From a bacterium (GTDB taxonomy: Bacteria; Blakebacterota; Blakebacteria; Blakebacterales; Blakebacteraceae): DNA of 11,245 nucleotides. This document shows, piece after piece, positions 1 to 2,809 of the stretch. Within the stretch, counting starts at the first letter, position 1. Every line of letters starts with the position of its first letter. Below the pieces are notes generated by a model. That model had not been told where the DNA came from and made no database searches. It was given only the letters and a program-made list of their open reading frames with translations. The stretch lies in contig JALGWK010000107.1 in the NCBI GenBank assembly GCA_025774205.1, positions 1-11,245 on the forward strand. The letters run 5' to 3'. Both the position numbers and the translations under genes were made by a program.

Positions 1-386
1 TTGTGCCAGACCTTCATGAAGTCAGCCTTCGACTTGCTCAGTACGATCTGGCCATCCTGGTTCTCGATGTTCTCGAGGTAGACTTCGACTCTATCGCCGA
101 CCGACACCGTATTCTGATCGCCGAATTCATCGAGCGGAATGATCCCCTCGCTCTTGAATCCGACATCCACGATGACATCACGATCTTCGATGCTCAGTAC
201 GACTCCAGAGACGATCTGACCTTCATCAATGAGGGCCAGCGTCTCGTCGTACAGCGCCATCATCTCGTTGTATTCATCTTCGGTGTATTCCGAAGCTTCG
301 AGCTCTTCCTCCGTGAGGAAGGTCGGTTCATCCATGACCTTCTCCTCAACGGCAGGGTTGGGGTTTACGGTTTTTTCTTCCGGCAT
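1..386 (-). CDS. rpsA: 30S ribosomal protein S1, N-terminal part (cut by left window edge)
   Basis: Reading the minus strand from an ATG at 386 gives 128 codons that stay open to the window edge. S1 binds mRNA on the 30S subunit and helps unfold and recruit messages. Residues 1-55 are very acidic (for example EEELEASEYTEDEYNEMM), as in S1 leaders of many phyla. The first S1/OB repeat starts near residue 56 (EGQIVSGVVLSIEDRDVIVD) and runs to about 120, with the family signature GFKSEGIIPLDEF at 76-88 and GQIVLSKSKAD at 112-122. The start is chosen for a strong GAGGAGG 10 nt upstream; an in-frame ATG at codon 18 has no comparable site. It follows cmk by 74 bp, and cmk-rpsA adjacency is common in bacteria. 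Only the first of several expected S1 repeats is visible. The identification is firm; the C-terminus is not seen. Confidence 0.93.
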   Translation of the reverse strand, partial: MPEEKTVNPNPAVEEKVMDEPTFLTEEELEASEYTEDEYNEMMALYDETLALIDEGQIVSGVVLSIEDRDVIVDVGFKSEGIIPLDEFGDQNTVSVGDRVEVYLENIENQDGQIVLSKSKADFMKVWH

Positions 387-462: not shown

Positions 463-1118
463 AGGGTTGATGGTTCATGTCAGAATCGCTCTCGATCGCT
501 TTATTCACGAGAGCTTCGATCAGGGCAACCTGTTCATCTATCGTCAGATCACTGGTATCGGTGATGATCGCGTCAGGGGCCTTCCTTAACGGGGAATGCA
601 CCCGCTCCGAATCATACGTGTCACGCTGCTCGAGATCCTCCCGGACCGTTGCCAGGGTGACATCGATACCATCTGAGACAAGTTCCCGACGACGTCTGAA
701 GGCACGTGCCCGCAGATCGGCATCCAGATAGATCTTCACGTCCGCTTCGGGGAAGACGACCGTTCCGATATCTCGCCCTTCGAGGACCACCCCACCCTCG
801 CGACCCATTTCCTGCTGGGCCTGGACGAGGATTTCCCTGACGAATCTCGTCAGAAACATCCTCGCCGTCAAGGAACACACGCACACCGTGTCCATCGGGC
901 TCAAGACGGATAGCGGTCTCATCAGCCAGCCGGGTGACACGTTCGTGGTCGGAAGGGTTAATTCCGGCCCGGATCACCTTCAATGTCATGGCCCGGTACA
1001 TGGCGCCGGTATCGATATGAAGATATCCCAGCCTGCGAGCCAGGAGACGGGCCGTGGTACTCTTCCCTGAGGCGGCTGGACCGTCTATCGCCACGATCAG
1101 GCCTTTCGATCCGGCCAT
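461..1118 (-). pseudogene. cmk: Cytidylate kinase, split by an apparent ~50-bp frameshifting deletion
   Basis: CMP kinase phosphorylates CMP and dCMP with ATP in the cytoplasm. The first frame (ATG at 1118) encodes 93 good residues: P-loop GPAASGKST at 13-21, [10 protein letters not shown] at 34-43 and [13 protein letters not shown] at 81-93. It then turns to nonsense and stops near 621. The next frame takes over at about 841 with [37 protein letters not shown], the RD-rich lid region ([10 protein letters not shown]) and a normal end at 461. In intact homologues about 16 residues (the TxEV...S stretch) lie between EIR and VRE. They are absent here, so roughly 50 bp is missing and the frame is broken. 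The start overlaps the upstream stop as TAATG. This is either a real recent inactivation or an assembly or sequencing error. The family call is firm; the functional status is not. Confidence 0.88.
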
Positions 1119-2809
1119 TACTTCATCCGCTCTCCCTCATCCTCGCGGATGAATATCCAGCCGACGGTCTTGCCGATATCGAGCTGCTGGTCGAGATGCC
1201 AGTAGTTCCGGTCATGGTGGAATCGGCTGCTGGTTTCCTCCGGAGGGATACTCTCCGTCTCCTCGATGATGGCGCGCGCCCGTTCCTGCCACCGGACCAT
1301 ATTCTCCACCCGGAGATCGACCCAGCCGTCAGAGGCCCACTGCTCGACGCTCTCAGGTTCCACCAATTCACTTTCGAGTCCTCGAGGCGGCGGGATCTTG
1401 ATCATCGGACCGCGCAGGAGGCGTCCATCAGGCAACAGGATCGGGATCCCGATCGAGATGATCTCGCTCCTGAACTCGGCGTCTTCCTCGATCAGGGCCA
1501 GGCAGTCCGCCGAGAGGGTGCCGGCGTCGGTCTCCACGACACTTCCGAGGGTCCCGGCCGAGCGGCGCAGCAGTTCGGCTTCAAAGAGCAGTTTACTCAG
1601 GCGGGGTGGACCCAGCACTTCGAAGGCGACCGAGCGGATTCCATGCTCCTCTTCCAGCGCCCGAAGCCTTTCGAGAGCAGACTCCCGCAGTGATCCGGCC
1701 CGGTAGGTCGGTCCCATGACGGACATATCGAGGGCATTGATGATATCGAACCCGGTGTTCCCCCCGAGGATCTCCCGGATGACATGACTCGATATCTCCT
1801 CCGGTGTGATGAACTCCATCTGTCCGATGGTCGTGATAACCCCGAACTCGCCCCGTGAGAAAAAGCCATTCTCCCCGGTGTCGATATAGACCGATTCAAG
1901 GACCCGGTCATCACCCAGCCGTCGGAAATCATCGTCCGGCAAAGACATGACCAGCTCACCGGCCGGTTCTGCCGCTTCCTCCGGGGTGACGTCGAAGAGT
2001 GGAATCGGGCGATGGTGCTTCATGACCGGACCTGTCCCGATCCCCTTCCAGGCAATGACCGCGGCCGGTTTCACTTCCTTGACGATCGGTCCGTCAGGGG
2101 TTCGCCCCATCAGGAAGAGCAGCATGCTGTGGGCGCCCGCCATGGCCGACTTGCTCAGCAGAACCCGCGAGGGTCGTTCCTCGGAATGGGTGTAGGGAAT
2201 ATTCAGTCCCATGCCGCCTGTGCCGGTGGTGCCGACCTTGATGTACATGCCGGTCCCGGCCTCCAGCATGGCCGCGTAGAGTACCTGAACATGACGCACC
2301 AGCTGCGGTGTGTACTGGGTGGCCACCAGGCGGACGGTGGCGTCTGCCACTTCCTCGCGGTCGCCGTTCTGGAGGGCTTTGAGTACTTCATTGCTGCCGA
2401 GATACACATCCTGATAGGCAAGCGCGGTGGCGGTGTTGATCGCGTCTACCACCAGATCGGGACGCATGTCGGCGATCAGGCGGTAGAGCGCCTGCCCCTG
2501 AAGGGATTCTTCATTAAGATCGCCGAACGCATCTTCCAGGAACAGGTTCCGGTGTTCTACATCCTGCAGCAAATCATTCCGGGAGAGATCCTTGAAGGCT
2601 TCACGCACGAAGATGTTACCCCAGCATGCCTCAACCGGAATCCCGGGGAACAGGGCCTGGAGATCATCCCGTGCCTCTTCAGCCTCCGTGCGGAGCAGGC
2701 TCGAAACCGTGAGATGGGACGGTTTCCTCTCAAGCAGGTCGCGGCAGATGGCCTGCCCAACCATACCGAAGCCGCCCAGAACCAGGATACGACGCCCGCT
2801 GATATCCAC
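1118..2809 (-). CDS. Atypical SDR/Rossmann-fold protein of unknown function, 563 aa
   Basis: The N-terminal half looks like an extended short-chain dehydrogenase/epimerase fold. A nucleotide-binding glycine motif sits in [13 protein letters not shown] (6-18), a strand-4-like [11 protein letters not shown] at 118-128, and TTGTGGMG at 194-201. After these comes [13 protein letters not shown] (208-220), where family members usually have an E..P then YxxxK. Here Lys220 is present but the Tyr position is Val216, so ordinary SDR catalysis is doubtful. Residues from about 260 to 563 match no domain I recognise; they end in a Trp-rich acidic segment ([17 protein letters not shown], 494-510). The start is a GTG at 2809 with AAAGGA 8 nt upstream; no better in-frame ATG is near. 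It lies 13 bp after rluB, and its stop overlaps the cmk start (TAATG), so it is part of the operon. The substrate is unknown; an NAD(P)-binding or regulatory role is possible. Confidence 0.75.

Follow-up and report, generated by a model that had tools for sequence, protein, structure and literature searches.

A 50-bp gap in cmk of a draft metagenome-assembled genome, best explained as a local assembly error

The cmk locus and its missing segment

The DNA analysed here (the window) is the whole of contig C350, 11,245 bp in length, which belongs to a draft metagenome-assembled genome (MAG) of 527 contigs that is estimated to be 85.85% complete and 4.84% contaminated. All of the main genes of the contig lie on the minus strand. 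In addition to cmk, which encodes the bacterial (d)CMP kinase, they include part of a methylmalonyl-CoA mutase gene and genes for methylmalonyl-CoA epimerase, an enzyme of the methionine gamma-lyase/cystathionine gamma-synthase type, comEC and trpS. The gene adjoining cmk (window 1121–2809, minus strand) encodes a 563-aa protein that gave just a weak match to Epimerase (NAD-binding) and no NCBIfam match, and may represent an uncharacterised family. The features at the cmk end of the contig are as follows:

3–386, minus strand: start portion of an rpsA-like gene (ribosomal protein S1) with a PF00575 S1 domain, downstream of cmk and truncated by the contig end
461–841, minus strand: C-terminal part of cmk, in a different frame from the N-terminal part, reading from VREILVQ... 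to the stop codon at 461–463
839–842, minus strand: cmk junction, at which 50 bp of the sister sequence are absent in DNA alignments
842–1118, minus strand: N-terminal part of cmk, with its start codon at 1118 and the P-loop GPAASGKS, reading to ...GEDVSDEI
826–864, no strand assigned: quasi-palindrome centred on the cmk junction, with 18 nt arms (826–843 and 847–864) that are 83% complementary and 3 nt apart

The truncated gene at 3–386 is probably rpsA, a name that we took from its S1 domain and from the neighbouring cmk. The nearest relatives used for comparison were G001, a sister genome from the same genus, and G002, from the same family. Their cmk contigs match JALGVQ010000001.1 and the Latescibacterota MAG record JAGLTZ010000277.1, respectively.

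An earlier note on this DNA had reported that cmk is broken at 836–846, and our searches agree. Pfam Cytidylate_kin (PF02224) matches the gene in two pieces that lie in different frames of the minus strand; window 1094–837 corresponds to profile positions 1–82, and window 850–506 to positions 95–209 of 211. The junction at 839–842 falls inside the range originally proposed. TIGR00017 also matches in two pieces. The gene is therefore recognizable as a member of the family, since the two parts together match most of the family length, the P-loop and conserved motifs are present, and the order of cmk followed by an S1 gene is the usual one. It differs from other bacterial (d)CMP kinases in that the parts are in different frames and 16 residues of the NMP-binding part are absent, such that this assembly offers neither a continuous frame nor a complete NMP-binding domain.

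The nature of the break is apparent from DNA alignments with G001 and the JAGLTZ record, in which a single clean gap of 50 bp, equivalent to 16 codons plus 2 bases (50 mod 3 = 2), is the only large gap in cmk. The flanks stay nearly identical to those of G001 as far as the edge of the gap, which is therefore not a product of chance. The junction lies at 841/842 and can slide to 839/840 by virtue of a shared 2-nt GT. At the protein level, the N-terminal part is 88% identical to the G001 homologue over residues 4–99, and that homologue (G001:C96) reads DEIR-MLEVTARASLVSEIPY-VREIL, with 16 residues separating the two blocks. Thus, the earlier estimates of one deletion of ~50 bp and of some 16 intervening residues in homologues proved accurate, and the alignment that might have contradicted them, one with no missing residues, instead lacks 50 bp and 16 residues. 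Given that the lost 50 bp belong to the NMP-binding part, simply shifting the frame would still leave an abnormal protein, as had also been argued in the note. The absent part corresponds to about residues 93–108 in E. coli numbering, just before Arg110. Arg110 touches the cytosine base (PMC3603445).

The note had recommended inspecting cmk in sister genomes, and the gene is intact in both G001 and G002. Compared with G001, dN/dS is 0.095 for the N-terminal part and 0.184 for the C-terminal part, values which show that both halves are still under purifying selection. One further, unrelated genome contains a break in cmk close to this point of the profile (G033:C11:10186-10792; L033). We set this case aside, as the split is an NNNN scaffold gap.

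Similar losses elsewhere in the draft

To place the cmk gap in the context of the whole draft, ~366 kb of the window's genome were compared with 502 kb of G001 over the genes that are common to both, which gave about 100 (~102) comparable reading frames. Randomly sampled contigs added almost no further comparable genes, and four of them looked like stretches of N when tested for overlaps. The IleS regions were left out because their alignment was too gappy. Ten one-sided, frame-changing gaps were found in the ~102 frames of the window's genome, with lengths of 50 (cmk), 52, 20, 32, 83, 10, 35, 20, 85 and 4 bp, so that roughly one in ten of the compared genes has suffered such a loss. The 85-bp case is less certain, since a frame that is continuous in the window's genome spans two frames in the sister. 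Apart from cmk, the genes affected encode a MacB/FtsX-type permease, a glycosyltransferase family 9 protein, an ABC transporter ATPase and an ABC exporter, together with a nosZ-like gene (nos_propeller), nosD, secA and a PF13189 (cytidylate kinase-like) gene. A 106-bp loss in valS was found separately by family search. The following sites lack 10–106 bp relative to the sister:

L154:252: secA
L206, ~3030: valS
L148:10325: nosZ-like gene
L148:7640: nosD
L127:3950, L129:8970, L139:2180 and L141:3375: other losses

Damage thus recurs across the draft in genes that are unrelated to one another, some of them essential. The nosZ-like gene and nosD lie near each other (L148/L149) in this Latescibacterota-related lineage, an arrangement that suggests nitrous oxide reduction.

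The sequence matches at the junctions are 0–3 bases long, as judged from the sister, whose flanks may differ from the true flanks of this genome. The G001 draft itself has about three similar short losses when compared with the window's genome (L130:13062, L140:6923 and L146:2452), and its own gene breaks likewise call for care. In most of the compared frames, differences at third codon positions predominate. No mid-gene stop codon was found in 92 clearly coding frames of the window's genome; the stops that do occur all fall within the first 52 matched residues, in a stretch that we take to precede the true start. Finally, two contigs of the draft overlap at their ends by exactly 114 bp, and exact end overlaps of this kind are typical leftovers of de Bruijn assemblers (PMC7111523).

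The palindrome at the junction and other kinase genes

The quasi-palindrome at the cmk junction had not been described in the earlier note. Its stem score is reached by just 0.15% of sites drawn at random from the genome, although among 13 junctions the top score would be this extreme ~2% of the time. At the other 12 junctions, inverted-repeat scores were at background (combined p 0.63 without cmk), and excision of a hairpin loop was accordingly rejected as a mechanism common to all of the losses. Both arms are mostly present already in the sister, and the palindrome therefore predates the loss. It may have been a cause of low coverage, or it may be there by chance.

The note had also proposed a search for a second CMP/UMP kinase. 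Our profile search revealed no other PF02224 gene in the assembly. It does contain two PF13189 genes (L145:16111-16919 and L147:202-855), one of which has a 4-bp frame break. The two genes are in tandem and are found in the sister as well (G001:C58); here they are split over the two contigs with the 114-bp overlap. We considered the idea that they arose as a replacement after cmk was lost, and rejected it because the sister carries both of them alongside an intact cmk. As regards the need for cmk itself, the gene has been reported to be essential to Bacillus subtilis and Streptococcus pneumoniae, but Yersinia pseudotuberculosis and, according to some reports, E. coli can do without it at the cost of growth defects (PMC3603445).

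A probable assembly error and its alternatives

The earlier note had left a choice between a striking inactivation and an assembly fault. The evidence favors the fault, while the similar losses in secA and valS, the lack of mid-gene stops and the conserved halves of cmk disfavor inactivation. In our opinion, the organism very probably has a normal cmk, with the 50 bp having gone missing through a local error in assembling the MAG, a reading that we draw from the pattern of losses. Since similar short losses are found in other essential genes of the draft, the cmk gap is read as a mistake of the same kind. A cell without working secA, valS and cmk together is implausible, and a set of local assembly errors is the simplest cause of the losses. 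Curators have described such errors as a source of wrong protein-coding sequences in metagenome assemblies (PMC7111523), and the likeness extends to short, presumably unsupported joins that harm coding sequences and occur many times per draft; in our case, however, they were deduced by comparison with a sister genome rather than from reads. Probably, a short stretch inside cmk was unsequenced or poorly covered, and the assembler joined its two flanks by a brief chance match where a gap should have been left. We would guess that a hairpin formed by the flanking arms lowered coverage at the junction. On this view, the source of the loss would be library preparation or assembly rather than the cells.

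Two points count against an artefact, namely the strong inverted repeat at the junction, which could favor a real deletion and is the only feature that would also suit one, and the dispensability of cmk in some bacteria (PMC3603445). Taken with the two PF13189 genes, they could describe a real and recent out-of-frame deletion in the sampled population, generated by slippage across the quasi-palindrome and survived through salvage, the low activity of another kinase, or because it is a minor variant. We nevertheless regard such a deletion as unlikely, given the similar breaks in secA, valS and other genes, the conservation of both halves of cmk, and a stem score that loses much of its force once it is set against all 13 junctions, 12 of which do not rise above background. 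Less likely still is a free-living bacterium that copes by means of another kinase, such as the PF13189 proteins, after a hairpin-mediated 50-bp deletion has newly deprived it of its sole CMP kinase of the bacterial type. Like a short-deletion pseudogene, cmk has an out-of-frame loss within an otherwise conserved gene. Unlike one, it exhibits neither relaxed selection nor further disabling changes (although a very recent loss would look the same), and many essential genes of the draft are similarly affected.

Wide decay of genes in the lineage, with short deletions inactivating cmk among many others, would agree with a frame-changing loss in one of every ten compared genes. Yet decay would have struck secA and valS, and we know of no free-living cell that lacks these two genes. 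A decaying genome would also show stops, and the 92 coding frames are free of nonsense changes; moreover, third-position differences dominate in most frames and the close sister is largely intact. We therefore give decay very little credence. We can all but dismiss recoding, by which the ribosome would shift frame at the stem-loop to produce a shortened, working kinase. A strong stem-loop is indeed predicted (with DNA parameters) exactly at the frame change, but the change lies inside the stem-loop rather than upstream of it, and the product would still be 16 residues short in the NMP-binding domain compared with the sister and with solved CMP kinases. Furthermore, no relative has this arrangement, the sole other split (G033) being a run of N.

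Hence, the break in cmk is almost certainly not a real biological feature, and it is uninformative with regard to the pyrimidine metabolism of the organism. By the same token, apparent gene losses, pseudogenes and frameshifts in this and similarly fragmented metagenome drafts should be accepted as biology only when reads support them.
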